Assembly: GCA_017303555.1 (NCBI GenBank)
Contig: JAFLCN010000009.1
Coordinates: 62,001 to 126,000 of the forward strand
DNA length: 64,000 nucleotides
Reading direction: 5' to 3'
Source: Planctomycetota bacterium
Lineage (GTDB): Bacteria > Planctomycetota > Phycisphaerae > Phycisphaerales > UBA1924
This document shows positions 2,219-45,400 of the stretch, piece by piece; within the stretch, counting starts at the first letter, position 1, and every line of letters begins with the position of its first letter. Below the pieces are notes generated by a model. That model was not told the DNA's origin. It did not search any database and saw only the letters and a program-made list of their open reading frames with translations. Both the position numbers and the translations under genes were made by a program.

Positions 2219-3193
2219 ATGCGCAATCCGTCTTTGATTCGTTGTGCCGGTGCGATCGGCACGAGTTTGTTCTCTTTGTGCGCGCTCGCGCAGCAGCCGC
2301 AGGTCTATCTGACGGCCTCGACCGCCGCGAACGAGGCGCTGATTCCGCCTTCGCCGCCCCAGGACATCCAGTCGCTCACATTGAACACGATGCCCGCACT
2401 GCTTGCGGGCGCGACGCTGAACAGCTCAAACTCCGTGCACACCGGTGGCTACGGCAACAGCCGGGCGAGCGGCGCGATCGGTTCGGTGGGTGTGCGTGCG
2501 TTCGCGTACGAGCCGTACGGATATGACGAGTTTGGACACGAGATTCTTCTGGGGGGCGTCGCGGCGACCGCCCAGGCGCAGTTCACCGAGCGCATTCCCA
2601 TCACGCACCCCACACTGCCGATCGCGACAGTGGTCACCGTGACGCTTACCTTCACGATTACCGGCTCCCGTACGATTCCGGATCAGGGCGACTTCGGCGC
2701 GTTCAGCACCTACGGCGGCGCGCAGGCCTCGCTCGGCGACGGGGTCGGTCTTGCAACGAGTCCAACGTGGGTCAGCGCGGGCCCCGCGAACGCCGGCAAG
2801 ACGATCACCCTCAATCTTTCGACGCTCATTGGCCGCACGCTGGAGGTGACTTGCGTGCTCCTCGGCTCTGCCTCGGTCAACTCGAGCGCGGTGACGCTGC
2901 GGTCCGTCGAGTGTGACTACGTGGGGCGTGCGAGTCTTTCTTCGTCCACGGCCGGCGTGCGCTTCATCAGCCAGAACGGATACAACTTCGGCGCATGCCC
3001 CGGCGATCTCAACGGCGATCAACAGGTCGATGATGCCGACTTTGTCGTGTTCGTTGTCGGCTACAACATTCTTGATTGCGCCGATCCGGCAATGCCCGCC
3101 GGATGCCCGGCCGACCTGAACGGCGATCGCGTTGTGGACGATGCGGACTTTGTGGGCTTTGTCACCGCGTACAACAACCTGCTCTGCCCCTGA
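2219..3193 (+). CDS. Secreted GC-type dockerin protein, unknown beta-rich domain
   Basis: The protein has 324 residues. The signal peptide ends around LCALAQQ, a beta-rich region with no recognised motif follows, and a canonical dockerin occupies 260-324. The central region has alternating Thr/Val strands (residues about 145-165) and is reminiscent of choice-of-anchor extracellular domains, but no family can be named. ATG 2219 is preferred over an in-frame start at 2186: AGGAGG stands 11 nt upstream and the hydrophobic signal begins right after it. The previous gene ends 84 bp upstream on the same strand. Confidence 0.87.
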   Translation: MRNPSLIRCAGAIGTSLFSLCALAQQPQVYLTASTAANEALIPPSPPQDIQSLTLNTMPALLAGATLNSSNSVHTGGYGNSRASGAIGSVGVRAFAYEPYGYDEFGHEILLGGVAATAQAQFTERIPITHPTLPIATVVTVTLTFTITGSRTIPDQGDFGAFSTYGGAQASLGDGVGLATSPTWVSAGPANAGKTITLNLSTLIGRTLEVTCVLLGSASVNSSAVTLRSVECDYVGRASLSSSTAGVRFISQNGYNFGACPGDLNGDQQVDDADFVVFVVGYNILDCADPAMPAGCPADLNGDRVVDDADFVGFVTAYNNLLCP

Positions 3194-10212: not shown

Positions 10213-12396
10213 ATGCCGCGTTCATCTGTTGCGTTGGTCATCGGTCTGGTGTTGGCCGTCCTGGTCGCTGCGCCCGAGGCGCTCGCCGGCCCGCGCAAAC
10301 CCAGGGTGATCTACATCCATTCCGAAGCGAGCGCCGCCAGAGTCAATGACGTCCGGAACAAGCTCACGGGCAGCGGGCTGTTCGAGACGGTGGACCCGTT
10401 TGATGCTCGCGGCGCGACGCCAACCATCGGGCAACTCCGTCAATACGACGCGGCGCTGGTCGGCAACAACGCCGCGTGGCTCAACTCGGTCGCTCTGGGC
10501 AACGTCTGCAAGCAGTACATTGACGAGGGCTACGGGCTTGTTCAAACCGTCTTCACCACCGGCGGCGTGCCCGGCAGCAACCTGGGCGGCACCTGGACGC
10601 CCGATGACAACTGCATCGTCTTCGGTCCTTCGCTCCAGAACTCTGCCGCGAGCCTGGGGGCGATCGCCCTTCCCAACCATCCGATCGTGAACGGCGTCTC
10701 CGTGTTCAGCGGCGGCACCCGCAGCGCACGCCCCGATGGAACCGCGCTCACCGCCGGCGCAACGCTCGTCGCCAGTTGGAGCGACGGCAAGCCGCTCGTC
10801 GCCGTCGGCCCCAAGATCAACCGCGCCGATCTTGGCATGTACGCCCCCTCCTCCGATGCCGAAAGCAACCTCTGGGCCTCCAACACCGACGGTGCCAAGC
10901 TCCTCGCCAACGCCCTGGTCTACGTCATGCGGCCCAAGGTTCTCGTCGTCGAGAGCTTTGTTTCCGCGCTCAACGCGACCGACGTGCAGACCAAGCTCCG
11001 CTCGACCGGCTTCTTCAGCGTCGTTGACACGTTCGACGGCGAGGTGGACACTCCCACACTCGATCAACTCAAGCAGTACGACGCCATTCTGGTTGCCAAC
11101 AGCAATTTCTGGAACAATCGCGTCGCTCTGGGCAACGTCATCGCCGACTACACCGACTGGGGCGGGGGCGTGGTGCAGTCGGTTTTCACCACCGGCGGCA
11201 TTCCGAACAGCGACTTGGGCGGCCGTTTCACCGGCGACTACCGCATTATCAGTTTCGGCCCATCGACCACCGGCACCGCCAACCTCGGCGCCATCGCGTA
11301 CGCCGAGCACCCGATCGTTTCCGGCGTTGCCTCCTTCTCGGGCGGCTCTATCGGTTACCGCCCCGCCTCGACCGGTGTTGAGCCCGGCGGCCTCATCGTC
11401 GCCCGTTGGTCCGACGGCAAGACGCTCGCCGCCGTCTCCACCAAGCGACACAACCGCGCCGATCTCGGCATGTTCCCGCCTTCCAGCGCCGTCACAAGCG
11501 GGTACTGGGACGCCGCGACCGACGGCGCAAAGCTCATGGGCAACGCTCTTATCTACACCATCAGACCCTATGTGGGAATCGCCGATTCCGATTTTTCGGC
11601 CGCGCCCGCGAACACCCGCACCCGCCTGCTCGCGTCTCGCCGATTCAGCGGAGTCTCCATCCTTCCGAAACTCAACAGCGCGACTCCAGCGCTCGATGCG
11701 CTCCGCCCCTTCGGCGTGCTGTTCTCCTTTAGCGACGGCATCTTTGTGAACGCCGACGCCGTTGGAAACGTCTTCGCCGACTATGTCGATGCCGGCGGTT
11801 CCGTGGTCCAGGCCGTCTTCAGCATCACCGGCAACCCGGGCCTCGAGAATTCCCGCCCCCGCGGGCGCTGGATCACCCAGGGCTACGACATCACGCCCGA
11901 AGGTTCCACGGGCTCAAGCATCTCTTCCCCGGCTTCGCTCGGTGCCTTTGTCGGACCGGCCCACCCGATCCAGACGTTCGTCCGTCGCTTCGACAGCGGC
12001 GCCAGTTCGTACCGGCAGGGAAACGACCCGCTTCTGCGCGGCCGCCGGTTGATCCAGTGGTCCGATGGCAGGATGCTCGCCAGCCTGCATTCCTTCCGCC
12101 GCCGCGCCGACCTGGGCTTCCGCCCCGCCAGTTCGGCGGAGAGCGGTAACGGTTGGAATGTCCGCACCGACGGCACCACCATCATCGCCAACGCGCTGCA
12201 CTTCGCGGCATTCATGAAGCCCTGCCCCGGCGACTTCAACGGCGACGGCCAGGTTGACGACGGCGATTTCGTCATCTTCCTCGGCTACTACAACACGCTG
12301 GTCGATCCGCGTGGCGATCTGACCGGCGACGGCAACACCGAAGATGCAGACTTCGCCGTCTTCGTCCAGAGTTACAACGACCTTGTCTGTCCGTGA
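10213..12396 (+). CDS. Secreted ThuA/GATase-like triple-repeat protein with short-linker dockerin (paralogue A1)
   Basis: The protein has 727 residues and its signal peptide ends near ALAGPRKP. It has three tandem repeats of about 215 residues, each with a KVLxxxS strand, a TPTxxQLxxYDA segment, ALGNVxADYxDxGGGVV, an HPI motif, a WSDGKxLxAV strand and an NRADLGMxPPSS segment. The YDAxLV...DY-DAGGGVV...HPI order recalls ThuA/class I glutamine-amidotransferase folds (inference). No catalytic Cys is obvious. The dockerin (671-727) is the short form with YYNTLVDPRGDL in place of the Cys-containing linker. GGAGGA lies 9 nt before ATG 10213, and TATTCT at 10169-10174 may be its -10 box. Confidence 0.9.
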   Translation: MPRSSVALVIGLVLAVLVAAPEALAGPRKPRVIYIHSEASAARVNDVRNKLTGSGLFETVDPFDARGATPTIGQLRQYDAALVGNNAAWLNSVALGNVCKQYIDEGYGLVQTVFTTGGVPGSNLGGTWTPDDNCIVFGPSLQNSAASLGAIALPNHPIVNGVSVFSGGTRSARPDGTALTAGATLVASWSDGKPLVAVGPKINRADLGMYAPSSDAESNLWASNTDGAKLLANALVYVMRPKVLVVESFVSALNATDVQTKLRSTGFFSVVDTFDGEVDTPTLDQLKQYDAILVANSNFWNNRVALGNVIADYTDWGGGVVQSVFTTGGIPNSDLGGRFTGDYRIISFGPSTTGTANLGAIAYAEHPIVSGVASFSGGSIGYRPASTGVEPGGLIVARWSDGKTLAAVSTKRHNRADLGMFPPSSAVTSGYWDAATDGAKLMGNALIYTIRPYVGIADSDFSAAPANTRTRLLASRRFSGVSILPKLNSATPALDALRPFGVLFSFSDGIFVNADAVGNVFADYVDAGGSVVQAVFSITGNPGLENSRPRGRWITQGYDITPEGSTGSSISSPASLGAFVGPAHPIQTFVRRFDSGASSYRQGNDPLLRGRRLIQWSDGRMLASLHSFRRRADLGFRPASSAESGNGWNVRTDGTTIIANALHFAAFMKPCPGDFNGDGQVDDGDFVIFLGYYNTLVDPRGDLTGDGNTEDADFAVFVQSYNDLVCP

Positions 12397-12637
12397 ACCA
12401 CGACGGGTTCCCAGGTTGGTCGGTACGGCGAAATCGCGGCACGAGCGCCCGGGGCTTTGCGCGCGTCCCGATGTGTCCACGCTTCGATGGGGAAGCAACC
12501 CCACAATGACAGCGTCCGAAAACGCGACGCTCGATTATCGGAACTTTTTCCGAAGGCTTCTCTCTTTCCTTTTCCGTATCTTCCTTTAGACTTCGCTGTG
12601 ACTGCGCGTGCCGGTCCGGGACGGCGGAGGTCTCATT

Positions 12638-14848
12638 ATGTCGGTGAGAATCCTGATCTCCATTGCGATGTGCTTCGCCTTGTCGGGCATCGCCTTTGCC
12701 GGGCCTCGAAAGCCGCGGGTGGTGTACATCCACACCGAAACGGCAACGCCGGGGCACGCCGCGGACGTTGCGGGAAAGATCAATAGTTCGGGTCGCTTTG
12801 CCGCCGTCGATCTGTACAACGCCAACCTGGTCACTCCCACGCTCGAGCAGCTCAAGTCGTACGACGCGGCGCTGGTGGCGAATCGGAACGGGTGGTTCGA
12901 CCGCGATGCGCTCGGAAACGTGCTCGCCGACTATGTGGATGCCGGATACGGGGTGGTGCTCGCGCCGTTCACCAACGCGGGCGCGGCGAACATGAGCCTG
13001 GGCGGCCGCTGGACCGGTTCGTACAACAGCATCCTCTTTGGTAACAACATCACCGGCACGGCGACACTCGGCACGTTCAGCCTGCCCGATCACCAGCCCA
13101 GCACCGGCGTGCAGACGTTCAACGGTGGCTCGTTCTCGTACCGACCTTCGGGCACCGCGCTCCAGCCCGGCGCGGCACTCGCGATCTCGTGGTCCGATGG
13201 CAAGCCGCTCTCGGTGATCGGCCCGCTGCAGAACCGCGTGGACATCGGGTTCTATCCGACCTCGAGCGACGTAAACCCGGGCTATTGGAGCACCGCGACC
13301 AACGGCACGCAGATCATGGTGAACGCCCTGCTCTTCACCATCCGTCCGAAGGTGCTGATCTGTGCCGCGGCCGCCATCGAGGGCACCGGCGGATTGACCA
13401 ACCCGCGATTCACCGACCCGAGGAACAAGCTCGGCGGGACCGGGTATTTCGGCGCGATCGATCTGTTCGATGCCGCCATCGCGACACCCACGCTCGCCGA
13501 ACTCCAGAAATACGACATCGTGTTTTCCTGGAACAACGTGGACTACGACGACCCGGTTGCGATGGGCAACGTGCTGGCCGACTACACCGACTGGGGCGGG
13601 GGCGTCGTTCTCGCGGCGTTCGCCACAACCGGCGGCGGCGGTCTGGTTCAGCCCCTGCAGGGCCGATGGGAAACCGGCGGCTACCGCCTGATGGACCCGC
13701 TCGCCGGGATGACAAGCAACTCGCCCGCGACGCTCGGCACGGTGCAGTACCCGAACCACGCGATCATGAACATGGTCGCGTCGTTCGACGGCGGAGCCCT
13801 GAGCTTTCGCCCCACTTCGACCGCGCTGCCCGCGAACGCCGTGCTGGTGGCGCAGTGGTCGGATGGCAAGCCGCTGATCGTCACTTCGGTCACGCGCCAC
13901 AACCGCTGCGACCTGGGCATGTATCCGCCGTCTTCCTTTGTGGTCAGCGGTTTCTGGCAGGAGAACACCGACGGTGCTCGCATCATGGCCAACGCGCTGC
14001 TGTACACGGCGCGACCCTACATCGGCATCCTCCACTCCGAAACCACCACGCAGACAGCGCCGATGAGGAGCCGCCTCCAGCTCCAGCGCCGGTTCAGCGG
14101 GGTCGATCTGCTCACGCCCCTCCAGACCGCAACGCCCACGCTCGCAACACTCCGCCCGTACAGCGCGCTGCTCGTCTGGGGCAACAACAACTTCGCCGAC
14201 GCCGCGGGCTTCGGCAACGCGCTCGCTGATTACGTTGACGCCGGCGGGGGCGTTGTCATGGGCCTGTACGCCAACACCGCCAACCCCGCGCCGCTGAACA
14301 ACCGTCCGAAGGGACGCTGGATTACCGGCGGATATGACATCACGCCCGAAAGCGCGCTCCAGCCCACAATCTCCGGCACAAACGCAACGCTCGGCACCAA
14401 TCTCGCCGCGACAAGCCCCGTCACCACCTTCGTACGCAAGTTCGACGGCGGAACCGCGAGCATCCGTCAGAGCGGCAACCCGAACATCCGCGGGCGGCGC
14501 CTTTTGCAATGGTCGGACGGCCGGATGCTCACCAGCCAGCACAATTTTCTTCGGCGCTTTGACCTGGGCTTCTATCCCCCGGCGATCGCCGAGTTCCCGT
14601 CCGGCTGGCTGAGCCGCACCGACGGCACGGTTCTCATCTCCAACGCGCTCGACTTCGCGTCGTCCATGAGGCCGTGCTCCGGCGATTTCAACGGCGACCG
14701 CATCGTCGACGACATCGACTTTGTGCTCTTCGCGGATTACTACCAGCTTTTCAACGATCCGCGAGGCGACCTCAACGGCGACGGCCTGACCGATGACTCC
14801 GACTTCGTTTTCTTCGCCTCCGGGTACGACCAGCTCGGATGTCCGTAA
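12638..14848 (+). CDS. Secreted ThuA/GATase-like triple-repeat protein with short-linker dockerin (paralogue A2)
   Basis: The protein has 736 residues and is the tandem paralogue of the preceding gene; the mature protein starts GPRKPRVVYIHTE, almost the same as A1. It has the same three repeats and ends in a short-linker dockerin (680-736) with YYQLFNDPRGDL. ATG 12638 follows GGAGG by 7 nt. A TAGACT at 12587-12592 matches -10 boxes found elsewhere, but its -35 is poor. The close resemblance of A1 and A2, head to tail with 241 bp between, indicates a tandem duplication. Confidence 0.9.
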   Translation: MSVRILISIAMCFALSGIAFAGPRKPRVVYIHTETATPGHAADVAGKINSSGRFAAVDLYNANLVTPTLEQLKSYDAALVANRNGWFDRDALGNVLADYVDAGYGVVLAPFTNAGAANMSLGGRWTGSYNSILFGNNITGTATLGTFSLPDHQPSTGVQTFNGGSFSYRPSGTALQPGAALAISWSDGKPLSVIGPLQNRVDIGFYPTSSDVNPGYWSTATNGTQIMVNALLFTIRPKVLICAAAAIEGTGGLTNPRFTDPRNKLGGTGYFGAIDLFDAAIATPTLAELQKYDIVFSWNNVDYDDPVAMGNVLADYTDWGGGVVLAAFATTGGGGLVQPLQGRWETGGYRLMDPLAGMTSNSPATLGTVQYPNHAIMNMVASFDGGALSFRPTSTALPANAVLVAQWSDGKPLIVTSVTRHNRCDLGMYPPSSFVVSGFWQENTDGARIMANALLYTARPYIGILHSETTTQTAPMRSRLQLQRRFSGVDLLTPLQTATPTLATLRPYSALLVWGNNNFADAAGFGNALADYVDAGGGVVMGLYANTANPAPLNNRPKGRWITGGYDITPESALQPTISGTNATLGTNLAATSPVTTFVRKFDGGTASIRQSGNPNIRGRRLLQWSDGRMLTSQHNFLRRFDLGFYPPAIAEFPSGWLSRTDGTVLISNALDFASSMRPCSGDFNGDRIVDDIDFVLFADYYQLFNDPRGDLNGDGLTDDSDFVFFASGYDQLGCP

Positions 14849-14959
14849 GAACCCCCAGAAAACGGGGAGGATCTCCGCTGGAGACAGGGGGATCGTCGAG
14901 TTTGGTTACGGGACTTTGCCGGGTTTGGGGGCTCAACCCGACAAACGGCCGAATTTGGC

Positions 14960-14988
14960 TTGAGCAGGCGACAAAATTCCCGTATTCT
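14960..14988 (+). promoter_or_regulatory. Sigma70-like promoter for the M12-type metallopeptidase gene
   Basis: TTGAGC (14960-14965), a 17 bp spacer and TATTCT (14983-14988). The predicted start site leaves a leader of about 45 nt before ATG 15040. Confidence 0.5.
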
Positions 14989-15039
14989 GAACGCTTCCCG
15001 TCCGTGGATGGCCGGGCTTTTCTACCAGAGAGGGATCGC

Positions 15040-17796
15040 ATGCGCGGAAGCAATCGTTGTGGTGCCGACAGGAAATTCGACCTGTCCTGTGTAGCCGTTC
15101 TGCTGTCGGTTGGTTTGTGTGCGCCGGCCCTTGGCGCGCCCGCCGGCGACGGCCCCGTGAAGACCGACAAGGTCGGCATCTACGAGCCGTGGGAAGTGCT
15201 GCAGCAGAAGCTACCCGACGCCATGCTCGGCGACAAGCCGTTCATCCGCCCCGCCGGCGGACGCCAGGTCATGCTCGATATGAGCAAGATCACCCGCCAG
15301 CTCGCCGGTGCGCCGCTCGAGAGCGCACGCGCGATCGCGGTGCAGGCCGCGCCGGTCGTCATCGCGCTCCCGAAGCCCGACGGAACGTTCGAGCGCTTCG
15401 AGATCTACGAATCCCCCGTGTTCGAGCCCGGCTTCAGCGCCGAGTTCCCCAACATCAAGACGTACTGGGGCGAATCGCTCGATAGCCCGCAGTCGAACGT
15501 CCGCTGCGACGTCACCGACTTCGGCTTCCGCGCCCAGGTGCTCAGCTCCGAAGGCTCGTACTGGATCGATCCGGTTTCCTTCGGTGATACCAACCTCTAC
15601 ACGTCGTACGCCCGGAGCGATCTGCAGCGCACCGGCGCCTGGTCGTGCCTCGTGACGCCCGATGAAGCGATTCCGGGCGTTCCCCCCGCACAGAATCCCT
15701 TCGAAGATCGCGTCGCCACCGACGCGAACCGCAAGAACTACCGCGCCGCCGTCGCCGGCAACTTCGAGTACACCTCGTTCCACGGCGGCACCGTCGCCCT
15801 CGGCCAGGCCGCCATCGTCACCGCGATGAACCGCATCAACCAGGTCTACGAGAACGAACTCAACATCCACATGAACCTGGTGGCGAACAACTCCGCCATC
15901 GTGTGGGCGACGAGCGCCGACCCGTACACCAACGGCAACGGCTCGACGATGCTCGGCCAGAACCAAACCAGCCTCGACAGCCTCATCGGCACCGCCAACT
16001 ACGACATCGGCCACGTCTTCTCGACCGGCGGCGGCGGCGTCGCTGGCCTGGGCGTTGTCTGCACCGCGGGCAACAAGGCCCGGGGCGTCACCGGCCAGGG
16101 CTCGCCCACCGGCGATGCGTTCTGGATCGACTACGTCGCCCACGAAATGGGCCACCAGTTCGGCGGCAACCACACCTTCAACGGCGCCGACTCCAACTGC
16201 TCGGCCAACCGCGCCGCCAGCGCCGCGTACGAGCCGGGCTCGGGCTCGACCATCATGGCCTACGCCGGCATCTGCTCGCCGAACGATCTCCAGTCGAACT
16301 CCGACGCGTACTTCCACGCCAAGAGCTTCGAGGAAATCACCAACACGATGAACGCCAAGTCGTGCCAGACCACCAACAACACCGGCAACACGACGCCCAC
16401 GGTTTCGGCCGGCGCCGCGTACACGATTCCGATTCAGACCCCGTTCCTGCTCACCGCGTCCGGTTCGGACGGCGACGGTGACGCCCTTACCTACTGCTGG
16501 GAGCAGTACTTCCTGGGCAGCTCGCAGAGCGCCAGCGGCAGCCCGCTCAACTTCCCGGACACCGCCAGCCGCGGACCCTACCAGCGCTCCTGGACCCCGC
16601 TCGCCAGCCCGAGCCGCCAGTTGCCCCGCAACTCCAACCTTCTCTCCAACACCTTCGCGTTCGGCGAAACACTCCCGCTCATCACGCGTGCGATGACCTA
16701 CCGCGTCACCGTCCGCGACAACAAGGGCGGCGTCAACTCCGCGAACGTCAACATCACCTCTTCCAACACGGCCGGGCCCTTCCAGGTGACCAGCCCGAAC
16801 ACGGCTGTTTCCTGGGCCGGCGGCAGCACGCAGACCGTTACGTGGAACGTCGCGAGCACGACCAACGCGACGATCAACTGCCAGAACGTGGATGTGCTCC
16901 TCTCGACCGACAACGGCTCGACCTTCCCGACCGTCCTTGCTTCGAACGTTCCGAACAACGGTTCGGCAAGCGTGGTCATCCCCAACACCGCCGGCATCTT
17001 CAACCGCATCAAGGTGCGGGCCGTCGGCAACATCTTCTTCGATATCAGCAACGCCAACTTCACGATCACGGCCGCTGTGAATCCGTCGAACCCGACGAAT
17101 CCGCAGGCCAGCCCGTCTTCGGTCTGCGCCGGCGGCACGGTCACCCTCTCGGTGGATGCTCCTCCGGGCGGAATCGTCATCGACTGGTACTCCGGTTCCT
17201 GCGGCGGCACGTTCGTTGCCACCGGCACGTCCATCAACGTGAACCCGGCGGTCGCGACCTCGTACTTCGCTCGTGCACGGCGCACGTCCGACAGCGCGCT
17301 CTCGGCCGGCTGCGCCTCGGCCGCAGTCTCGATCCTGCCCAGCCCGGTTGCTCCGACCGGTGCTTCGTCTGATCGCGACAACCTGTGCATGTACGACGGC
17401 GGAAGCATCGTCCTGTCCGCCACCGGCGGTTCGGGCACCACGCTCCGCTGGTTCAGCGGTTCGTGCTCGGGCACCTTGCTCGGCACCGGCAACGGCCTGT
17501 CGATCGCGGCACCGACCACGACGACGACCTACTACGCCCGCTGGGAAACTTCCTGCGGCGTCAGCAACTGTGCCGCCGTGACCGTCAGTGTCCGCGGCTG
17601 CCCGGCCGACTTCAACTGCGACAATGTGGTTGAAGACGCCGACTTCGTGCTCTTCTCGACCTCGTACGACTTCTTTGACTGCACCGAGCCCGGCATGCCC
17701 CAGAACTGCGCCGCCGACGTGAACGACGACGGCTTCGTGGATGACGTTGACTTCGTGCTCTTCGCGACGGCCTACGACACGTTCGAGTGCCCGTAA
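15040..17796 (+). CDS. Secreted reprolysin-like (M12) metallopeptidase with GC-type dockerin
   Basis: The protein has 918 residues. A signal peptide and a propeptide-like N-terminal half precede the zinc site HEMGHQFGGNH, with His368, His372 and His378 as ligands and Glu369 as catalytic base; the following NHTFNG is typical of bacterial reprolysin-like peptidases. A cadherin/PKD-like region follows (about 450-560), then a domain with SPNTAVSWAGGSTQTVTWNV-like strands and two Cys-containing Ig-like repeats with RWFSGSC and DWYSGSC. The dockerin is at 854-918. ATG 15040 is preferred over an in-frame start at 14839, which would overlap the previous gene and lacks a signal sequence; AGAGAGGGA precedes 15040. 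Confidence 0.92.
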   Translation: MRGSNRCGADRKFDLSCVAVLLSVGLCAPALGAPAGDGPVKTDKVGIYEPWEVLQQKLPDAMLGDKPFIRPAGGRQVMLDMSKITRQLAGAPLESARAIAVQAAPVVIALPKPDGTFERFEIYESPVFEPGFSAEFPNIKTYWGESLDSPQSNVRCDVTDFGFRAQVLSSEGSYWIDPVSFGDTNLYTSYARSDLQRTGAWSCLVTPDEAIPGVPPAQNPFEDRVATDANRKNYRAAVAGNFEYTSFHGGTVALGQAAIVTAMNRINQVYENELNIHMNLVANNSAIVWATSADPYTNGNGSTMLGQNQTSLDSLIGTANYDIGHVFSTGGGGVAGLGVVCTAGNKARGVTGQGSPTGDAFWIDYVAHEMGHQFGGNHTFNGADSNCSANRAASAAYEPGSGSTIMAYAGICSPNDLQSNSDAYFHAKSFEEITNTMNAKSCQTTNNTGNTTPTVSAGAAYTIPIQTPFLLTASGSDGDGDALTYCWEQYFLGSSQSASGSPLNFPDTASRGPYQRSWTPLASPSRQLPRNSNLLSNTFAFGETLPLITRAMTYRVTVRDNKGGVNSANVNITSSNTAGPFQVTSPNTAVSWAGGSTQTVTWNVASTTNATINCQNVDVLLSTDNGSTFPTVLASNVPNNGSASVVIPNTAGIFNRIKVRAVGNIFFDISNANFTITAAVNPSNPTNPQASPSSVCAGGTVTLSVDAPPGGIVIDWYSGSCGGTFVATGTSINVNPAVATSYFARARRTSDSALSAGCASAAVSILPSPVAPTGASSDRDNLCMYDGGSIVLSATGGSGTTLRWFSGSCSGTLLGTGNGLSIAAPTTTTTYYARWETSCGVSNCAAVTVSVRGCPADFNCDNVVEDADFVLFSTSYDFFDCTEPGMPQNCAADVNDDGFVDDVDFVLFATAYDTFECP

Positions 17797-17822
17797 GCCC
17801 GATCGCCGACCGTTGAATCTCT

Positions 17823-17857
17823 GCCGCCCGGGCCTCCGCCCGGGCGGCTTTCTTTTT
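17823..17857 (+). terminator. Strong rho-independent terminator
   Basis: A perfect 11 bp stem GCCGCCCGGGC/GCCCGGGCGGC with a CTCC loop ends at 17848 and is followed by TTTCTTTTT. It lies 27 bp after the metallopeptidase stop codon and insulates it from the next gene. Confidence 0.9.
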
Positions 17858-18031
17858 GTAGCGGGGCGGCCCGTGCGCCCGGTTGGGGCGAAGGCGGACG
17901 GGTGGGGCCGGCACGTAGGCGACGCAGGGGCGGCATTTTTGGATGATTTTGGCCCCGAATCGAGAGATTGACGCACAGAGAGAGGAGCGGGGCGTCGAAT
18001 CGGACGGCCCGAAGCCCGGAGGATCACGACC

Positions 18032-19798
18032 ATGTTTACACGCGCAGCCCTTTGCCTGTCCGCCCTTGCCGGCCTTGCCGCTTCTACCGCGATCCACGGC
18101 CGTCCCGCCTCGGAGAACACCCGCTCGTTCAAGCCGGCGACACCGGTTTCGATCTGCCTGGCGGAAGGAACGAAGCTGACCCCGGAACTGCAGGCCAAGC
18201 TGCGGGCCGTGAACCAGGCGATCGGCGCGTACCTGGGCGTGGATCCGGAGGCGGACCCGAACGATCCGTTCGCCGACCGCTACAACCTCAACTCGCGATG
18301 GACCGGGTCGCAGGGCGCACCGCGCGTGATCACGTGGTCGTTTGTTCCTGATACGGTGAGCATCACCGGCGCTCCGGGCATCAGTGAGCCGACGAGCAAC
18401 AGCAGCCTCTTTGCAACGATGGATGCGGGCGTCGCGCGTGCGACGTGGGTCGCGCAGTTCCAGTCGTGCTTTGATCGCTGGGAAGCGCTCACCGGCATCG
18501 ACTTTCAGCGCATCACCTCGGGCGGCAACGACTGGGATGATGGAGCCTCGTGGACGTCGTCGGGCAGCGCGGCCCGCGGCGACATGCGCATCGGCATGCA
18601 CCCGATCGACGGGGGCAGCGGCATCCTGGCCTACTGCTACTTTCCGCAGAACGGCAACATGGTGCTCGACAAGAACGATTCAGGCAGCTTTTTGAGCGCC
18701 TCGAGCACGTACCGGTTCCTGCGCAACACGGTCGCGCACGAGATGGGCCACGGCATCGGCCTGAACCATGTTTGTTCAAGCAACAGCTCCCAGCTCATGG
18801 AGCCGTTCCTCAGCACCAGCTTCGACGGCCCGCGCCACGACGACGTCCGGGGCGTGCAGCGTCATTACGGCGACATCAACGAACCGGACAACGATGCCGC
18901 CAGCGCGGTCAGCTCCGGCGCCATCGCGCCGAGCGCCACCCGCACGCTCGGCACGATTCCCGGCGTCGCGATCCCGACATCCTCCACGCTCAGCATCGAT
19001 GCCGACGGCGAGATCGACTACCACTCGTTCAGCACCTCCCAGATCCTGCTGGCGACTTTCACGCTCACGCCCGTCGGCGCGCTGTACGACAGCTCCACGC
19101 AGAACGAGGACGGATCCTGCAACAGCGGCAACAACATCAACTCGCTGGGCACCGCGAACCTGGCCTTCGACATCCGCAACAGTGCCGACGCGCTGGTGAC
19201 GACCGTTAGTTCGGCCGCCGTTGGCGTGGCGGAAACAATCTCGGGCGTTCTGCTCTCGCCGCCCGGCACGCAGCTCGTGAAGGTGTACGAGGTCGATGCG
19301 CCGACGGCTTCGCAGATGTACACGCTGACGATCACCACCGCCGCAGCGCCGACCGTGACCGCGAGCGACACGCTTCCGAATTACGTCTCGCTCTCCTGGA
19401 CCAATATCCCGAACAACACCGGCTACACCGTGAAGCGCAACACCGTCAACAGCGAAGCGGGCGCGGCCACCGTCGGCACCCCGGGAACAAACTCGTTCAT
19501 GGACACCACGGCGCCCGACAACGCGACGCTCTTCTATTTCGTTTACGCGACGCAGTTCGGCTCGTCGAAGCTCGTCGGTTCCGACAGCGGCTTCGCCAAG
19601 TGCTCTGGCGATCTCAACAACGACGGCCAGGTCAACGACGCCGATTTCGTGATCTTTGTCACCGCGTACAACATGCTGCTCTGCTCCGACCCCAGCATGC
19701 CCAGCGGCTGCCCGGCGGATCTCAACCGCGATACGTTCGTGGACGACTCCGACTTCAGCATCTTCGTCGGCGCGTACGACAACCTGATCTGCCCGTAA
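18032..19798 (+). CDS. Secreted matrixin-like metalloprotease with GC-type dockerin
   Basis: The protein has 588 residues and a signal peptide. The catalytic domain runs to about residue 280 and carries HEMGHGIGLNH with His236, His240, His246 and Glu237, as in M10A matrixins. A later LMEPF may supply the Met-turn. After it come a possible prepeptidase-like beta domain with Ca-type Asp residues (about 300-440), a fibronectin-like domain (LSWTNIPNNTGY) and a canonical dockerin at 524-588. It is paralogous to the protein at 59266-61899: both share the FDRW...G...YFP order and a YGDxNEPxD segment. GGAGGAT is 7 nt before ATG 18032. Confidence 0.92.
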   Translation: MFTRAALCLSALAGLAASTAIHGRPASENTRSFKPATPVSICLAEGTKLTPELQAKLRAVNQAIGAYLGVDPEADPNDPFADRYNLNSRWTGSQGAPRVITWSFVPDTVSITGAPGISEPTSNSSLFATMDAGVARATWVAQFQSCFDRWEALTGIDFQRITSGGNDWDDGASWTSSGSAARGDMRIGMHPIDGGSGILAYCYFPQNGNMVLDKNDSGSFLSASSTYRFLRNTVAHEMGHGIGLNHVCSSNSSQLMEPFLSTSFDGPRHDDVRGVQRHYGDINEPDNDAASAVSSGAIAPSATRTLGTIPGVAIPTSSTLSIDADGEIDYHSFSTSQILLATFTLTPVGALYDSSTQNEDGSCNSGNNINSLGTANLAFDIRNSADALVTTVSSAAVGVAETISGVLLSPPGTQLVKVYEVDAPTASQMYTLTITTAAAPTVTASDTLPNYVSLSWTNIPNNTGYTVKRNTVNSEAGAATVGTPGTNSFMDTTAPDNATLFYFVYATQFGSSKLVGSDSGFAKCSGDLNNDGQVNDADFVIFVTAYNMLLCSDPSMPSGCPADLNRDTFVDDSDFSIFVGAYDNLICP

Positions 19799-19936
19799 GT
19801 CCCCGGTTGCGGAACGGTTCCCGGCTGGCACCCCCTCCAGCCCATCTATCGGACCGCACTTGTGGGAGGACCGTTCCGCGGCCGACTCGAGAGCGACAAA
19901 AGGCCGAACCGCGCGCCCCGCGCGATGGAAATCGCT

Positions 19937-19964
19937 TTGCCCTTCCCGCGCATCCGGTTATTCT
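19937..19964 (+). promoter_or_regulatory. Candidate sigma70-like promoter for paralogue B1
   Basis: TTGCCC (19937-19942), a 16 bp spacer and TATTCT (19959-19964). The distance to the GTG start is about 70 bases. Confidence 0.4.
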
Positions 19965-20035
19965 GATTCCGGAGCGAATGGCGCCCGGAGTGTCGCCGGT
20001 AGACCGGTGCGCTTCGGGCCGTGGGAGATTCAAAG

Positions 20036-22204
20036 GTGAAGTACTTTTGTCGATTGTGTGTGATTGCTCTCGCGGTTGTCGCGCTCGCCGCGACCGCACA
20101 CGCCGGCGCGAAGCGCCCGCCGAAAGTGCTGATCATCCACGCGATACCCGCCGCGTTCTCGAGCTGGTACGCCGATGTCCAGTCGAAGATCGCCTCGTGC
20201 AACCTGTACAGCGGCGTCAGCCTCTTCGACGCCCGCGTCGCCACGCCTCCGCTCTCAATCCTGATGGCTCACGATGCGGTGCTGGTCTTCAGCGACGCCC
20301 CATTCTTCGATGACGTCGCGCTCGGAAACACGCTGGCCGACTACGTTGACGCGGGCGGCGGCGTCGTCTCCTGCACCTTCGCCAACGCCTCGATTCCAAT
20401 CGGCGGTCGATGGGCGCCCGACTACCTCGTCATCAACCCGCTGGGACAGGCCCAGCCCGCCGCCTCGCTCGGCACAATCGCCGACCAGAACCACCCGATC
20501 ATGATCGGCGTGACCGCGCTCAGCGCGACCCAGGCATTCCAGAGCACCGGCGCCGTGCTCCCGGGCAACACCCCGGTCGCATACTGGAACAACAACAGCC
20601 CGCTGGTCGCCGTTTCCAACTCGCGACCCGGTCGGGCGGACCTCAACTTCTATCCACCGTCCAGCAACGTGCGCCCGGACTTGTGGGATACCTCGGGCGA
20701 CGGCACCAAGCTCATGGTCAACGCCCTCAACTACGTCATGCGCCCGCGCGTCCTGATCGCCGCATCACCCACCACCGCCAGTTGGATCAATGACGTCAAA
20801 GCCAAGGTGCGCGCCACCGGCCTCGTCGGCATCACGGATACATTCAACATCGCGACCGGCACGCCCTCTCTCTTCCAGCTCCAGGCCTACGACGCGGTGC
20901 TCGCCTTCACCGATTTGAACCCGCTGAACCCCGTGGCGCTCGGCAGCGTCCTGGCCGATTACGTCGATGTCGGCGGCGGCGTCGTCACGGCGTGCTTCTC
21001 ACAGCACAGCCTTTTCCGCATCACTGGCAGGTGGGCGAACACCTACGAACTCATCACTCCCAGCAACACCATCACCGGGGCGGCGTCGCTCGGCGCGGTC
21101 TCGTACTCCGCCCATCCGACGATGGCGGGGGTCGCCTCGTTCTCCGGCGGCACGTCGTCCTTCCGCCCGTCGGCTGCGGTCCTCAACCCCGGAGCTTTCA
21201 ACATCGCGCAGTGGTCCGATGGTCGCCCGCTTGTCGTTGCCTCGACCAAGTTCCACAACCGCGCGGAACTGTGCTTCTATCCAGTCTCCAGCACCGTGCG
21301 ATCCGATTTCTGGAACGCCGCGACCGATGGCGGGAAGCTGATGGCCAATGCACTGGTCTACACCGCCAAGCCCTATATCCTCGTCGCCGCGGCCGATGAA
21401 CCCACCTTTCAGTCGGATCCAGTCGCCAAGCTGATCGCGACCAGGCGATTCAGTGGTGTCGGAACATTCAACCTGGGCACGTCCACTCCCGCATTGAGCG
21501 TTTTTACGCCATACAACGGAGTCATCAGTTGGTCGAACACCGCATACCAGAATTCCGACGCCGTGGGCAACACGCTCGCCGACTACGTTGATGCCGGCGG
21601 AGGTGTGGTTGTCTCCGCGTTTGCGAACCTCAACACCGGATTCAACGCGACCATCCGCGGCCGCTGGCCCACAGGCGGCTACGACATCTGCCCAACCGCA
21701 ACCCTCCCGGGTTACACCACCGCCGGTCCGACGACAGGCCTGGGCGCCTTGCTCGAACCCAACCATCCGATCGCGCGTTTCGTCCGGAGATTCGACGGCG
21801 GCAGCGCCAGCTACCGCGCCACTTCCAATCCGCTGCTGAGAGGCCGGGACATCATGAACTGGTCGGACGGTATTACGCTCGCGTCGGCACATAATTTCCG
21901 CAAGCGTGCGGATCTCGGCTTTTATCCGGGCTCCAGTGCCACAGTGCTCGCCGGATCCGCCTGGAACCAGCGGACCGACGGGACATGGATCATGGCCAAC
22001 GCCCTCGAGTTTGTCGTGCGCGCCAAGCCGTGTCCGGGTGACTTCAACGGCGACGGACAAGTGGACGATGCGGACTTTGTTCTCTTCGCGGTTTACTACG
22101 ACACCCTTGTCGATCCGCGGGGCGACCTGAACGGCGACGGGCTCACAGAGGACAACGACTTTGTGATTTTCGCGAGCAGTTACGATGCGCTGGTGTGTCC
22201 ATGA
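20036..22204 (+). CDS. Secreted ThuA/GATase-like triple-repeat protein with short-linker dockerin (paralogue B1)
   Basis: The protein has 722 residues and belongs to the same three-repeat family as the genes at 10213 and 12638, but to a distinct subgroup whose mature protein begins GAKRPPKVLIIH. Each repeat keeps ADYVDxGGGVV, HP(I/T)MxGV and WSDGxPL. The dockerin (666-722) is the short form with YYDTLVDPRGDL. GTG 20036 is chosen over GTG 20021 because GGGAG stands 8 nt before it and alignment with the next gene starts the signal peptide there. Confidence 0.88.
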   Translation: MKYFCRLCVIALAVVALAATAHAGAKRPPKVLIIHAIPAAFSSWYADVQSKIASCNLYSGVSLFDARVATPPLSILMAHDAVLVFSDAPFFDDVALGNTLADYVDAGGGVVSCTFANASIPIGGRWAPDYLVINPLGQAQPAASLGTIADQNHPIMIGVTALSATQAFQSTGAVLPGNTPVAYWNNNSPLVAVSNSRPGRADLNFYPPSSNVRPDLWDTSGDGTKLMVNALNYVMRPRVLIAASPTTASWINDVKAKVRATGLVGITDTFNIATGTPSLFQLQAYDAVLAFTDLNPLNPVALGSVLADYVDVGGGVVTACFSQHSLFRITGRWANTYELITPSNTITGAASLGAVSYSAHPTMAGVASFSGGTSSFRPSAAVLNPGAFNIAQWSDGRPLVVASTKFHNRAELCFYPVSSTVRSDFWNAATDGGKLMANALVYTAKPYILVAAADEPTFQSDPVAKLIATRRFSGVGTFNLGTSTPALSVFTPYNGVISWSNTAYQNSDAVGNTLADYVDAGGGVVVSAFANLNTGFNATIRGRWPTGGYDICPTATLPGYTTAGPTTGLGALLEPNHPIARFVRRFDGGSASYRATSNPLLRGRDIMNWSDGITLASAHNFRKRADLGFYPGSSATVLAGSAWNQRTDGTWIMANALEFVVRAKPCPGDFNGDGQVDDADFVLFAVYYDTLVDPRGDLNGDGLTEDNDFVIFASSYDALVCP

Positions 22205-22320
22205 TGCACCGCGACGCCGCGAATGTGCCTTCGCCGAGGTGACTGTCCAGCCGCCGGACTCGATAGGCCCCATAAAAGCTGGCTCATGGGGCGCCAGAGT
22301 CGATTTGCGATTTTCATTTC

Positions 22321-22348
22321 TTGAACCACGTCCGATTTTGGTTACGCT
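22321..22348 (+). promoter_or_regulatory. Candidate sigma70-like promoter for paralogue B2
   Basis: TTGAAC (22321-22326), a 16 bp spacer and TACGCT (22343-22348), with ATG 22418 about 70 bases downstream, the same geometry as for B1. Confidence 0.4.
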
Positions 22349-22417
22349 GGGTTCAGACGCTCGGGGCCGGCGCGCACCCGGCGGGTCGGGTTGCGCGCGG
22401 CTTGTGGAGGATCGAAC

Positions 22418-24586
22418 ATGAATTGGCTGACACGTTTGTTGGTGTGCGGGCTGGCCGTGCTCGCCTTTGTCTCGGTGGCCGACGCCGGCGCCAAGCGCCC
22501 TCCCAAGGTCTTGATTCTCCACGCCACGCCTTCGGGTTTCCCCACCTGGCCGGACGATGTGCAGAACAAGATCGCGAGCTCCAGCCTGTTCACCACCGTC
22601 GACCGCATGGATGTCCGCGTGGCAACCCCGTCGCTCGCCACGCTCCTCTCTTACGACGCTGTGCTGGTCTTCAGCGATGCAGGTTTCTTTGATCCCACCG
22701 CCCTGGGCAACGTGCTCGCCGACTACGTCGATGCCGGCGGCGGCGTGGTTTCATCCACGTTCACCAACGCCTCGGTACCGCTCGGCGGACGCTGGGCACC
22801 GGGCTATCTGGTCATCAACCCCGCCGGACAAGCCGCGCCCAATGCCTCTCTCGGCACGATCGCCAACCAGAACCACCCGATCATGATCGGCGTCACCGCG
22901 CTCGCCGCGACGCAGGCCTATCAGGGCACCGGCGCTGTGCTCGCGGGCAACACACTCGTGGCGTCGTGGAGCACGGGCGGCCCCCTGGTCGCAACCTCCA
23001 ACACGCTCCCCGGCCGTGCCGACCTCAACTTCTACCCGGTTTCGAGCGACGCGCGCGCGGACTTCTGGAACACCGCGGGCGACGGAGCCAAGCTGATGGT
23101 CAACGCGCTCCTCTACGTCATGCGGCCGCGCGTGCTCATCGCGGGCGTCGAATCGACGTCCACAAACTGGGTCGGCGATGTCAAGAGCAAGGTCCGCGCG
23201 ACCGGTCTCATCGGCATCACCGATACCCTCAATCTGGCCGTCTCCACGCCCACCCTCGCACAACTTCAGTCGTACGACGCCACCCTCGTCTGGACCGACG
23301 CTTTTTCCTTCAATTCCTCCGCCCTCGGCAACGTCCTGGCCGATTACGTTGATTCCGGCGGCGGCGTGGTCACCTCCATGTTCGCCTCCGCCGGACTTGC
23401 AATCGGCGGTCGCTGGTCCACGGGCTACCAACTGATCGCCCCTTCCAGCCAAACCAGCGGTGCCAGTTCGCTCGGCGCGATCACGTATGGCTCCCACCCC
23501 GCGATGCTCGGGGTCGCCGCCTTCAACGGCGGCACATCCTCCTATCGCCCGTCCACCGGCGCGCTCAATCCGGGCGCGTTCGCCATCGCCAAGTGGGCCG
23601 ACAGCCGCCCGCTCGTCGTCGCCTCCACCAAGCTCCACAACCGGCTCGACCTGGGCTTCTTCCCCCCATCAAGCACCGTGCGCGCCGATTTGTGGACCGC
23701 CGCCACCGACGGCGGCAAGCTGATGGCCAATGCACTGGTCTACACCGCCAAGCCCTACATCTTGGTCGGTGCCGCGGACAACGCCCCGTTCCAGGCTGAT
23801 ACCGTCGCCAAACTCAACGCCACCAAACGCTTCAGCGGCGTCGGCACGGTTGATCTGGGGATGTCCTCGCCCACCATCGATGTCTACACGCCGTACAACG
23901 CCGTCCTGACCTGGTCCGACGCGCCTTACTTCAGTCCGGTCACCATCGGCAACACCCTCGCCGATTACGTCGATGCCGGCGGCGGCGTGGTCGTCGGTGT
24001 CTTCGCCAACACCAACGCGGGCGGCAACTTGGCGCTCCAGGGCCGCTGGCCCACCGGTGGGTACGACATCTGCCCGACCGCGTCGGTCCCCAACTACACC
24101 AACACCGGTCCGGCCGCTTCGCTCGGCTTGCTCGTCGAACCCTTCCATCCCATCGCCAGCTTTGTCCGGCGGTTCGATGGTGGCTCGGCCAGTTACCGCG
24201 GCATCACCAGCCCGCTTCTGCGCGGACGCACCATCATGAAGTGGTCCGACGGCAACATGCTCGCCGCCGTTCACAACTTCCGCAAGCGCGCGGATCTTGG
24301 CTACTTCACCCCCTCCAGCGGCACAACGCTCGGCACCCTTGCATGGAACCAGCGCACCGACGGCACCTGGATGACGGCCAACGCGATCGAGTTCGTTGTC
24401 CGGGCGAAGCCTTGCCCCGGTGACTTCAATGGCGACGGACAGGTCGACGATTTCGACTTCGTCCTGTTTGCGAGTTACTACGACGCGCTCGTCGATCCGC
24501 GCGGCGATCTCAACGGCGACGGACTCACCGAAGACAGCGATTTCGTGATCTTCGCCAGCGGATACAACGAACTGGTCTGCCCGTAA
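22418..24586 (+). CDS. Secreted ThuA/GATase-like triple-repeat protein with short-linker dockerin (paralogue B2)
   Basis: The protein has 722 residues, identical in length to B1 and strongly similar throughout, so B1 and B2 are a recent tandem duplicate. It has the same three repeats and a short-linker dockerin at 666-722 (YYDALVDPRGDL). TGGAGGAT precedes ATG 22418 by 6 nt, and the signal peptide ends near SVADAGAK. A terminator follows, closing the pair. Confidence 0.9.
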   Translation: MNWLTRLLVCGLAVLAFVSVADAGAKRPPKVLILHATPSGFPTWPDDVQNKIASSSLFTTVDRMDVRVATPSLATLLSYDAVLVFSDAGFFDPTALGNVLADYVDAGGGVVSSTFTNASVPLGGRWAPGYLVINPAGQAAPNASLGTIANQNHPIMIGVTALAATQAYQGTGAVLAGNTLVASWSTGGPLVATSNTLPGRADLNFYPVSSDARADFWNTAGDGAKLMVNALLYVMRPRVLIAGVESTSTNWVGDVKSKVRATGLIGITDTLNLAVSTPTLAQLQSYDATLVWTDAFSFNSSALGNVLADYVDSGGGVVTSMFASAGLAIGGRWSTGYQLIAPSSQTSGASSLGAITYGSHPAMLGVAAFNGGTSSYRPSTGALNPGAFAIAKWADSRPLVVASTKLHNRLDLGFFPPSSTVRADLWTAATDGGKLMANALVYTAKPYILVGAADNAPFQADTVAKLNATKRFSGVGTVDLGMSSPTIDVYTPYNAVLTWSDAPYFSPVTIGNTLADYVDAGGGVVVGVFANTNAGGNLALQGRWPTGGYDICPTASVPNYTNTGPAASLGLLVEPFHPIASFVRRFDGGSASYRGITSPLLRGRTIMKWSDGNMLAAVHNFRKRADLGYFTPSSGTTLGTLAWNQRTDGTWMTANAIEFVVRAKPCPGDFNGDGQVDDFDFVLFASYYDALVDPRGDLNGDGLTEDSDFVIFASGYNELVCP

Positions 24587-41591: not shown

Positions 41592-42200
41592 TCATCCTTC
41601 AACCAATCGATCCCCCGCCTCATCACTCCCCAGCCATCTCTTGAGCCAAGCCCGCGCCACCCGCCAGTCCTTCTCCACCGTCGATTCCGAAACGCCCATC
41701 ACCTCCGCAGTTTCCGTCGTCGTCAGCCCCATGTAAAACCGCAGCCGCACCGATTCCACCGCCCGCGGATCAAGCCGCGCCAGTTTCTCGAGCGCCTCTT
41801 CAATCTCCAGCACATCAAACCCGCTCTCGACCGCGCCGCCCGACACCAGCCCCGGCACATCCGCCCGCCCCGGCGCCGTCCTCCCCGGTGCGGTCCGCTT
41901 GATGGCCTTCTTCCGCCGCGCATGGTCAATCAACACCAGCCGCATGCAGTTCGCCGCCCGGGCAAAGAAGTCTGCTTTGGACAGCCCCGCCGCCGAAGTC
42001 CCATCCACCCCGATCACCCGCAAGAACGCCTCATGCACCAGCGCCGTCGGCTGTAACGTGCGCGCGTTGTTCTCGCGCCCCAGAAACACCGCCGCCATCC
42101 CCCGCAGTTCCTGATAAAGGTCCGCCGGCCCAACACCCGGGGGAAAGCTCGCCCCAGTGTGCTCAGGTGAAGGCGAGAAATTGAAAGTGCTTGCAATCAA
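41592..42200 (-). CDS. ECF-type RNA polymerase sigma factor (planctomycete Sigma70_ECF family)
   Basis: The protein has 202 residues. Region 2 carries TLQPTALVHEAFLRV (about 48-62) and ADFFARAANCMRLVLIDHAR, signatures of the Sigma70_ECF family that abounds in planctomycetes. Region 4 (about 140-190) contains an HTH with TTTETAEVMGVSESTVEKDW. It should direct RNA polymerase to a specific regulon, with the downstream kinase as probable signalling partner. The start is unsure: TTG 42200 gives the longest product but has no Shine-Dalgarno, and the family's usual N-terminal helix is shortened. It is divergent from the serine protease gene at 42401; whether it controls the dockerin genes is unknown. 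Confidence 0.88.
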   Translation of the reverse strand: MIASTFNFSPSPEHTGASFPPGVGPADLYQELRGMAAVFLGRENNARTLQPTALVHEAFLRVIGVDGTSAAGLSKADFFARAANCMRLVLIDHARRKKAIKRTAPGRTAPGRADVPGLVSGGAVESGFDVLEIEEALEKLARLDPRAVESVRLRFYMGLTTTETAEVMGVSESTVEKDWRVARAWLKRWLGSDEAGDRLVEG

Positions 42201-42400
42201 AGAAGTTGCGCCGTCGTGTGCTTCGCCGATCCGGAGATGACATCAATCTACCAGATTTTCGCGAGATTCTCACTAGGGAATGCAAGGCACTCCCATTCGG
42301 TCTGCGCTGGAAGAGTAACGGGCCACACGCGCCCTCTCGCAACGTAGCCGGGAATGCTGACAGTCGCGGCACAGTCCGAGCGCGGAAGAGGAGATCGATC

Positions 42401-45400
42401 ATGAGCCTTTCGACTTTAAAGTTGCTCCAACGGTCGGCAATTCTGATTGCTTCCGCTAGTGCAGCGCTCTTCCCACACGAATCACACGCGCAATCGCCTC
42501 CGCTCAAGATTGTCTCAACGAATGCACGAGATCTTCCGTCGAAGCACCTCGCCGGAAGCGATCGACTTCAATGGTGGTGGGATGCAGGTCACCGAGCGAG
42601 CCCCGAGAACCCAGGCCCGTTTGCCGATCGGGTAATTTATGGTGCCAACGACCGAAAGGAAGTATACGCCGAGACCGACGACCGCTTACGCACAGCTGCC
42701 GCGTCGACGTGCATCATGGTTCCAAGATGGCAGCTGTTTGACTTGCGGAACGGGTATTACTACATCATTGGGGTTGAGCGCTTCAATACCTTCTTTGGTG
42801 ATCCGGGCCTCTGCCCTGACGATCCGTTGTACTCGCAGCTTGGCTTCGTTGGCGGATGTTCGGCATTTCTGATCGGGCCGGATCACGTTGCAACTGCAGG
42901 TCACTGTCTCGACGGCGCGGACTTGACGGAATGGGCGTTTCTTTTCGGATACGATCAACGCGACGGAAACCAGGATCCCGAGTTGTTGGTTTCTGCGGAT
43001 CGGGTCTACTTCCCAGTTGAAAAGCTATGGTCGGCGCTCGACTCGCAATTTGATCATGGGGTTGTCCGAATTGACCGCCCAGTGATGGACCGCCGTCCGT
43101 TGGCCGTTCAAGATACGGGATTTGTTGCTGGAAATGCACAGTTGGCGATTATCGGAAACCCGTTTGTTCTCCCCACCAAAGTCGCAAACAATGGGCAGGT
43201 GTTGCGATCGCTTCCAGAGTACGAGAACTTTGAGACGAACCTCGATCATCTTCCGGGAAACTCCGGATCTCTCGTTATGAACGCTGCGACAGGATTAATC
43301 GAAGGGATATTGGTCGCTGGTCCTGCCGTCGACTACTGGGCAGTTATTCCGCCCGATTCGTGCTTTCATGAATTTGTCTGTCCGAACAATGGCGGGGATT
43401 GCGTCTCGGCGATTGTGAGCCGCGCCGGAGTGCTCAAGCTTCATCAAGCCGATTCTTTGCTTGCTTGCGGCGCAGATTTTGATGGCAATCGAGTTGTCGA
43501 CGATTCCGATTTTGTGGCGTTTGTTATCGCATACAACGAAGTAGTCGTTCCGCCTGCTTCACAGAGATGTGATCTGAACGGTGACGGTTTTGTGAACGAT
43601 GAAGACTTCCCCACTTTCCTCCGCTATTACGACGAGGGATTGTGCCCGGACCTGCCGTCATCTCCAGCAAACGTTTCCACAAGCCTGAGTTCCTCTACGA
43701 CAGCAGTAATTCGTTGGCAAGGGCGATCACCCTCGGACTCTCAGTACGAGATTCTTCGGAGCGGTGATGGGAAAAACTTTGCGGTCGTGTCCACCGCTCC
43801 AGCAAATGCTACCAGTGCTCCAGTATCGGGCCTCGCGCCCGCGACGCCTCACTGGTTCACCGTACGCGCTCTGAATGATCATGGGTTAGGGCCCGCGGGC
43901 GCGGTTGCAAAAGTGCGCAGCGACTGTCCGTTGCGTTCGCCACAGAATGCCACCATCACGCCGACCGGTCCCGACTCCGTACGAATTCAGTGGCAATCCC
44001 CGGTCGGGGCGGAGACATGGATTTATGTCGACGTGGATCCGGCCTTTTCCTTGCCCCAAGGGTGGGCCGTAGGTGTCGGTCAGTCATCGATCAATTTCAA
44101 AGGATTCGAGACGGGTACGACCTACTACTTCCAATTACAATCCGTCGATACCGACCTGTATCCGATGTGCAACTCGCCCTCTACAAGCTTGCAGTTCAAG
44201 ATTTGTCAAACAAATGCTCCGACAAACTTCCAGCGGACAACCGTCGGCCCGACAAGCATTGCTTTTGCCTGGAATGACAATTCCGACGACGAGATCCAGT
44301 TCAAGATCGAACGCCTGTCCGGATCTGTGTGGGTGCTGCAGGAGAATGTGCCTCCCAACGCGACGCGCGCTACCGTGACCGGCCTCTCACTTGGCCAAAC
44401 CTACACCTTTCGAATTGTTGCGGATGGCCCTTATTGCGATTCTCCTTCAAACTCAGTAACTGAAACAACGATCTGCAACGTAGCAGCTCCAACAGGAGTG
44501 CAAGTACTTAGCATTGGTGCTGCGAGCGCTGTGATCCGATGGGTCGACAACTCGGACAACGAGATTCAGTTCAAGATTCAGCGATGGAACGGATCGGCTT
44601 GGGTTCTTCAAGAGAACGTTCCTCCGTCCGTGACCCAAGCGACCGTCACCGGTCTCTCGCCCAGTGCGTCCTATCGAATGCGCGTCGTCGCCGATGGATT
44701 AGGCTGCGATGCGGTTGGTGGCGAAGTGGTGTTTTCCACGACCGATGGTTGCTTCCCTGCACCGACGAGTTTTCGACCGGCGAGCATCGCGGCAACCAGT
44801 GTCGTCTTTGCCTGGAGCGACAATTCTGGAGAAGAGCTGCAGTTCCGGATTGAGCGGCAATCAAGCGGGTCGTGGGTCCTGCAAGAGAATGTCCCTCCCA
44901 ACGCAACCAGTGCGACCGTGACCGGTCTTACGCTTGGTGCGACCTACAAATTCCGAATCGTCGCAGAAGGGCAGTACTGCGATGTGGCCAGCAATTCCGT
45001 CGACGTCACGACGGTTTGCGACACTGCGCCGCCGAGCAACTTCCGCGTAATTCAGGTTCTCGCAACAAGCGTGAAGGTTGCTTGGAACGACAACTCGAAC
45101 AACGAGATTCAGTTCCGCGTTCAGCGCCTGTCGGGTGGTACATGGGTCTTGCAGGAGAACGTGCCACCAAACGCGACAAGTGCAACGCTGACCGGCCTGA
45201 CCGTGAACACTAGCTATCGGTTCCGAGTTCTGGCTGACGGTCCGGCGTGCGACGGTGTTGGAAATGAACTGACGGTCACCACGCAGTGCGACACTGCCGC
45301 TCCGACTAGCTTTCGAGCCACCTCCGTCGGGAGGAACACCGTGAACGTGGCGTGGACCGACAATTCAACGAACGAAGTTCAGTTCAAGATTGAGCGTTGG

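Follow-up and report, generated by a model that had tools for sequence, protein, structure and literature searches.

The stretch of 64,000 nucleotides analysed here, referred to as the window (positions 62001-126000 of contig C42), carries four paralogous genes for ThuA/DUF7408-like proteins, each ending in a short-linker dockerin module (Table 1). Every protein is made up of roughly three repeats, each some 210 residues long and most clearly visible in genes 2-4. The ThuA/DUF7408 matches of genes 2-4 are weak: these genes scored 23.3-28.4 bits against ThuA (PF06283), below its gathering score of 33.4 bits, and only gene 4 passed PF24157 (DUF7408), with 32.2 bits against a cut-off of 27. Gene 1 was assigned as ThuA-like via its homology to genes 2-4. 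The C-terminal ends of the proteins encoded by genes 1 to 4 are, in this order, YYNTLVDPRGDL, YYQLFNDPRGDL, YYDTLVDPRGDL and YYDALVDPRGDL.

Table 1. ThuA-like genes and selected dockerin features of the window (positions counted from its first nucleotide)
Feature	Position	Strand	Remarks
ThuA/DUF7408-like secreted protein 1	10213..12396	+	ORF opens with TTG at 10114; signal-peptide-like start at ATG 10213
Short-linker two-Cys dockerin, protein 1	12220..12393	+	ends CP-stop
ThuA/DUF7408-like protein 2	12638..14848	+	ORF from GTG 12608, ATG 12638; tandem repeats of ~215 aa
Short-linker two-Cys dockerin, protein 2	14672..14845	+	
ThuA/DUF7408-like protein 3	20021..22204	+	three tandem repeats of ~207 aa
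Short-linker two-Cys dockerin, protein 3	22028..22201	+	
ThuA/DUF7408-like protein 4	22418..24586	+	ORF from TTG 22391, ATG 22418
Short-linker two-Cys dockerin, protein 4	24410..24583	+	AlphaFold2 model, pLDDT 93
Short linker DALVDPRG, protein 4	24482..24505	+	module residues 25-32
Thr at loop-2 position 8, protein 4	24527..24529	+	marker residue of the unstapled type
Representative stapled four-Cys dockerin	2993..3190	+	linker C-ADPAMPAG-C; AlphaFold2 model, pLDDT 94
Internal dockerin	43466..43639	+	single Cys just before loop 2; 1125-aa ORF 42185-45562

In total, 26 dockerin modules are found in the window, almost all of them at the extreme C-terminus. The module cysteines are numbered C1 to C4 from first to last, and modules with a Cys-free linker (F) are distinguished from those with a two-Cys or stapled linker (P). 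The description of the four ThuA-like modules given in the initial annotation could be reproduced: 15 residues separate loop 1 from loop 2 in place of the usual 23, exactly eight fewer, both linker cysteines are missing while the first and last are retained, and loop 2 contains T-E-D in genes 1, 3 and 4 and T-D-D in gene 2. Its linker consensus, YYxxL(V/F)xDPRGDL, is broadly right and slightly off for gene 2 (LFNDPRG). Also as annotated, all 22 other modules contain at least one linker Cys, 21 of them two or more and the internal module a single one. This module, situated some 650 residues from the end of its ORF, is the one complete module of the window found in a clearly internal position. 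In an alpha-amylase-like protein (3' end of 24835-27447) the module has no C1 and retains C4, and the same change is present in a relative (L139).

Own-profile searches and fetched stretches of the host genome (G000; 4.06 Mb, 42 contigs) yielded 191 distinct modules, which are under-counted by the Pfam dockerin and NF041540 searches (14 and 54 matches, respectively). About 190 secreted proteins of the host genome end in this tag, and the plain version is found on approximately one fifth of them. Both C2 and C3 are present in 146 modules and neither in 36; nine have a lone edge Cys, bordering loop 2, and C2 never occurs alone. The outer pair is complete in 188 modules, absent from two in which C2 and C3 are kept, and reduced by the loss of C1 in one. 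The two modules without C1 and C4 (L064:7237-10017 and L116:7180-7521) thus represent the reverse of the short type. Exactly one residue follows C4 in 159 of the 188 modules with this Cys, and D1, D10 and D12 are conserved in about 100% of modules. Since the calcium ligands and C1/C4 are kept in the short modules, these are not decaying, and a reading of them as degenerate dockerins was rejected. A third linker form, Cys-free, 20 residues long and marked by a PGG...TG motif, was seen in four related proteins (L128:13084-15120, L068:287-2326, L068:2333-4276 and L105:287-2113) and is kept by their relatives in other MAGs; the one of the four that was scanned singly is a PA-domain subtilase.

The 36 Cys-free modules are spread over 22 upstream families, including S8 (subtilase), M1, M14 and M12B peptidases, a PAD-type deiminase, phytase-like and ThuA-like proteins and proteins without a Pfam match, and in four upstream families both tag types are mixed. 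The statement that the short modules are confined to one protein family is therefore true of the window only, and short modules do occur across unrelated domains, which is much of what had been named as speaking against a family-specific variant. The proposed tie to the ThuA-like domain holds in so far as all six ThuA-like copies of the genome are short and the type tracks the parent protein; it fails as an exclusive relation, given the 22 families and the four mixed ones. The short tag is a genuine genome-wide subclass that was misdescribed as family-specific.

The same two types could be found outside the host genome. The nearest named relatives in a public scan were MAGs labelled Phycisphaerales, Phycisphaeraceae or Planctomycetota. 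Six other MAGs, found by a separate scan, gave 143 modules, with both linker cysteines in 62, neither in 76, a lone edge Cys in five and C2 alone in none. The lone edge Cys varies between close relatives (DFRC versus DFRA), in the manner of an unpaired residue. When homologous proteins were paired across MAGs, the type agreed in 110 of 111 pairs (66 F-F, 44 P-P, one switch), and all 16 ThuA-like relatives in other MAGs are short and have Thr at loop-2 position 8.

This position is the single core column outside the linker that sharply separates the two types. Thr is found there in 28 of 36 Cys-free and in one of 146 two-Cys modules of the genome (Fisher p about 1e-24), and in 67 of 76 versus none of 62 modules of the other MAGs, a match set that is Thr-enriched by the query pattern. 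F modules with a 15-residue linker have T in 95% and P modules have V in 97%, while position 8 of loop 1 is V in both. In the AlphaFold model of the stapled module a bridge joins the residue before C2 to loop-2 position 7, so that the linker and position 8 are neighbours. Thr8 may compensate for the missing staple. An explanation of Thr8 as a mere effect of the short linker was rejected: sister genera with 14-residue linkers mostly have V or I, and those with 12-13 residues have T.

Both module types are predicted with confidence by AlphaFold (pLDDT 93.2 for the short and 93.9 for the stapled module), and for both the best PDB matches in Foldseek are dockerins, with modest E-values (2y3n_B, TM 0.73 and 0.69, respectively). 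For the short module this match (probability 1.00, E 8.5e-3) places the model within the dockerin fold.

The initial annotation took the short linker as a sign of a different partner or site on the scaffold. Loop positions 10 and 11 are recognition residues of cellulosomal dockerins, where a different partner of the short class should be visible. Both types carry D with A or S at these positions in the window's genus, and FN, DF, TL or Q with A or S are found in other genera. Core identity between F and P modules (0.59) is about the same as among P modules (0.60), compared with 0.39-0.46 towards other genera; F modules are slightly more similar to each other than a random split predicts. Because both forms share this genus-specific core, a different partner for the short tags is not supported, and the indirect evidence speaks against it. 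Within each genus the core is homogeneous over dozens of proteins, with identities of 0.60-0.76 within and 0.32-0.51 between genera (window and loci L224-L299), a concerted evolution of the tag that would be expected if one receptor per genus reads them all.

A distinct docking class, in which the short tag would direct mainly large proteases and ThuA-like proteins to another receptor or scaffold site, is nevertheless conceivable, if unlikely. It would fit the inheritance of the type with the parent protein and the co-occurrence of Thr8 with the linker change, and in Ruminococcus flavefaciens dockerin groups are linked with functional classes (PMC2930009). Inheritance alone is no proof of function, since an indel of eight residues and a Cys pair rarely changes anyway. 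The parent proteins of short tags are also longer (family medians 708 versus 341 residues, p 5e-7), and peptidases are more frequent among them, with 12 of 36 compared to about 9 of 144 for stapled tags (p 6e-5; the stapled counts are approximate, from tallies). On these grounds the unstapled tags might have a function of their own. Counted by family, however, the enrichment is weaker (6 of 22 versus 8 of 103, p 0.018), the two types are mixed on four upstream families, and the core surface, including positions 10 and 11, is the same in both and differs between genera. In R. flavefaciens, cohesin recognition did not follow the second-order dockerin subgroups (PMC5301203). The Pfam searches yielded no cohesin family that could bind either type: PF00963 had no match in the host genome and none in seven further genomes of the genus, a search in which diverged cohesins could be missed, as these can escape sequence profiles (PMC11557425). 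The 4.06 Mb genome encodes about 190 dockerin proteins, with no cohesin found by Pfam.

The direction of the change has to be considered separately, as the initial annotation described the linker as having been replaced, with removal of two cysteines. In the sister genera of the same family (G010, G011 and G013), 79 of 82 modules, sampled under guidance of the short-type profile, have C1 and C4 and a Cys-free linker region; the remaining three are likewise without the linker Cys pair, and a search of these genera with the stapled-type profile found no stapled module. The DPRAD linker of the short tags is common to many sister-genus modules, and the short form is also the rule in more distant families. 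At the DNA level, each of eight genomes of the window's genus (g1) had 52-101 matches to the stapled-linker pattern, but each of 21 from other genera had 0-2; the reversed-pattern control gave 0-1. As the sister genera are short and the stapled pattern is near-absent outside the genus, it is most likely that the long linker was gained at the level of the genus and that the short form is older, so that the direction stated earlier is probably reversed. Modules from another family of the order (L254 of G019 and L256 of G024) have linker Cys pairs of their own, at a different length, possibly an independent staple.

The converse, in which the short type is derived by loss of the Cys pair and eight residues in several lineages under relaxed selection, is doubtful. 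Within the genus stapled tags predominate, and the nearest sister genera with 14-residue linkers rarely have Thr8. The module tree (189 modules), built with the linker and position 8 excluded, requires many changes of type (18-21 label changes, compared to 33 in shuffles), although it has only two well-supported branches and the modules are too short to decide between gain and loss. All of this would agree with loss. Against it stand the prevalence of the short form in sister genera and more distant families, the near-absence of the stapled linker outside the genus, the DPRAD linker shared with the sister genera, and the calcium ligands and C1/C4, whose retention is not that of a decaying module. 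Loss may still have occurred locally: the short modules of the genus differ from the sister form in linker length (15 versus 14 residues) and at position 8 (T versus V/I), and some of them may have reverted from the stapled state. Single lineages could be such cases, given the few well-supported branches of the module tree and the rarity of Thr8 among the nearest sisters.

The coupled presence of the cysteines, with C2 and C3 coming and going together and C1 and C4 kept, or in two modules jointly lost, suggests two disulfides: an N-C clasp between C1 and C4 and a linker staple between C2 and C3. Under the module's pseudo-twofold symmetry, the staple would probably be the symmetry mate of the clasp. 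In known dockerins the ends are joined, and end-to-end clasps stabilise them (PMC5934362). Pairing within each half (C1-C2 and C3-C4), with C1 and C4 of the short modules paired together or free, would suit the layout of the stapled module, in which each half is framed by its own cysteines. This arrangement is nonetheless quite improbable, since C2 and C3 vanish jointly while C1 and C4 stay, the reciprocal case exists in two modules, the sole cysteines of two-Cys modules in other genera are C1 and C4, and it departs from the joined ends of known dockerins. That the whole pattern is a by-product of the tandem duplication of one ThuA-like gene, without wider meaning, is scarcely tenable: the four genes are indeed paralogous (46-68% identity between the fourth and the others) and one contig carries five of the six copies, but the genome-wide count, which refutes this reading, places the same module type on 22 upstream families, and it recurs in other MAGs.

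The explanation that accounts best for these results, and that we hold to be probable, is that one genus-specific C-terminal docking tag exists in two structural forms, an older two-Cys and a genus-specific four-Cys form, which would share a receptor and differ in stability. The four short modules of the window would then be an older, GC-type-dockerin-like two-Cys tag kept beside the four-Cys form. Both forms would consist of two calcium loop-helix hands in a dockerin fold, with the domain ends probably joined by the C1-C4 clasp. Most tags of the genus would have gained eight linker residues together with C2 and C3, which probably form the second disulfide, and the unstapled tags would carry instead a Thr adjoining the packing site of the linker. 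Since both forms have the same genus-specific core surface and sit at the extreme C-terminus, they most likely dock to the same putative surface receptor or anchor, presumably not a Pfam cohesin, and would differ in stability rather than in partner. A more far-reaching possibility, speculative and rather unlikely, is a genus-wide, cohesin-free address system of two classes, in which about 190 secreted proteins per genome from many unrelated families share one concertedly evolving tag, and its stapled and unstapled versions direct proteins, large proteases for example, to separate destinations on the surface or withstand different redox or mechanical conditions.

What appeared as a local oddity thus points to a structural rule, a clasp with an optional staple, for a large and almost unstudied class of planctomycete C-terminal tags. 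In one genus a Cys-bearing linker is found on roughly a hundred upstream families with the docking core unchanged, and the putative receptor and the mode by which the tag spread therefore become directly testable.

Among known systems, the planctosome of Nemodlikiaceae (PMC6461901) also has planctomycete dockerins on peptidases; it includes cohesins, whereas none were detected by Pfam in the window's genus. Cellulosomal dockerins (PF00404) share with both types the fold, as judged by AlphaFold and Foldseek, and the pattern of loop ligands. They differ in that the listed window modules are below the gathering score of 22.9 bits (genes 1 and 4 reach 15.3 and 13.9, respectively; genes 2 and 3 were not listed) and that the Pfam search of the genome yielded no cohesin scaffold. 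Closer is the GC-type dockerin domain-anchored protein family NF041540, with two C-terminal calcium loop-helix repeats, a first and last Cys, a position at the extreme C-terminus and an occurrence on secreted proteins, all as found here. The four short modules remain below its cut-off of 29 bits (25.8 and 20.2 for genes 1 and 4, no match for genes 2 and 3), while other modules of the genome pass it with up to 32.5 bits. In a literature search no paper was found that uses the term GC-type dockerin or separates two-Cys from stapled forms. Ruminococcus flavefaciens FD-1 is similar in having about 200 dockerins per genome, with sequence groups that match the functional classes of the parent proteins (PMC2930009, PMC5301203); there the cohesin receptors are known and the groups were tested by binding, whereas the grouping presented here is based on the Cys pair and the length of the linker.
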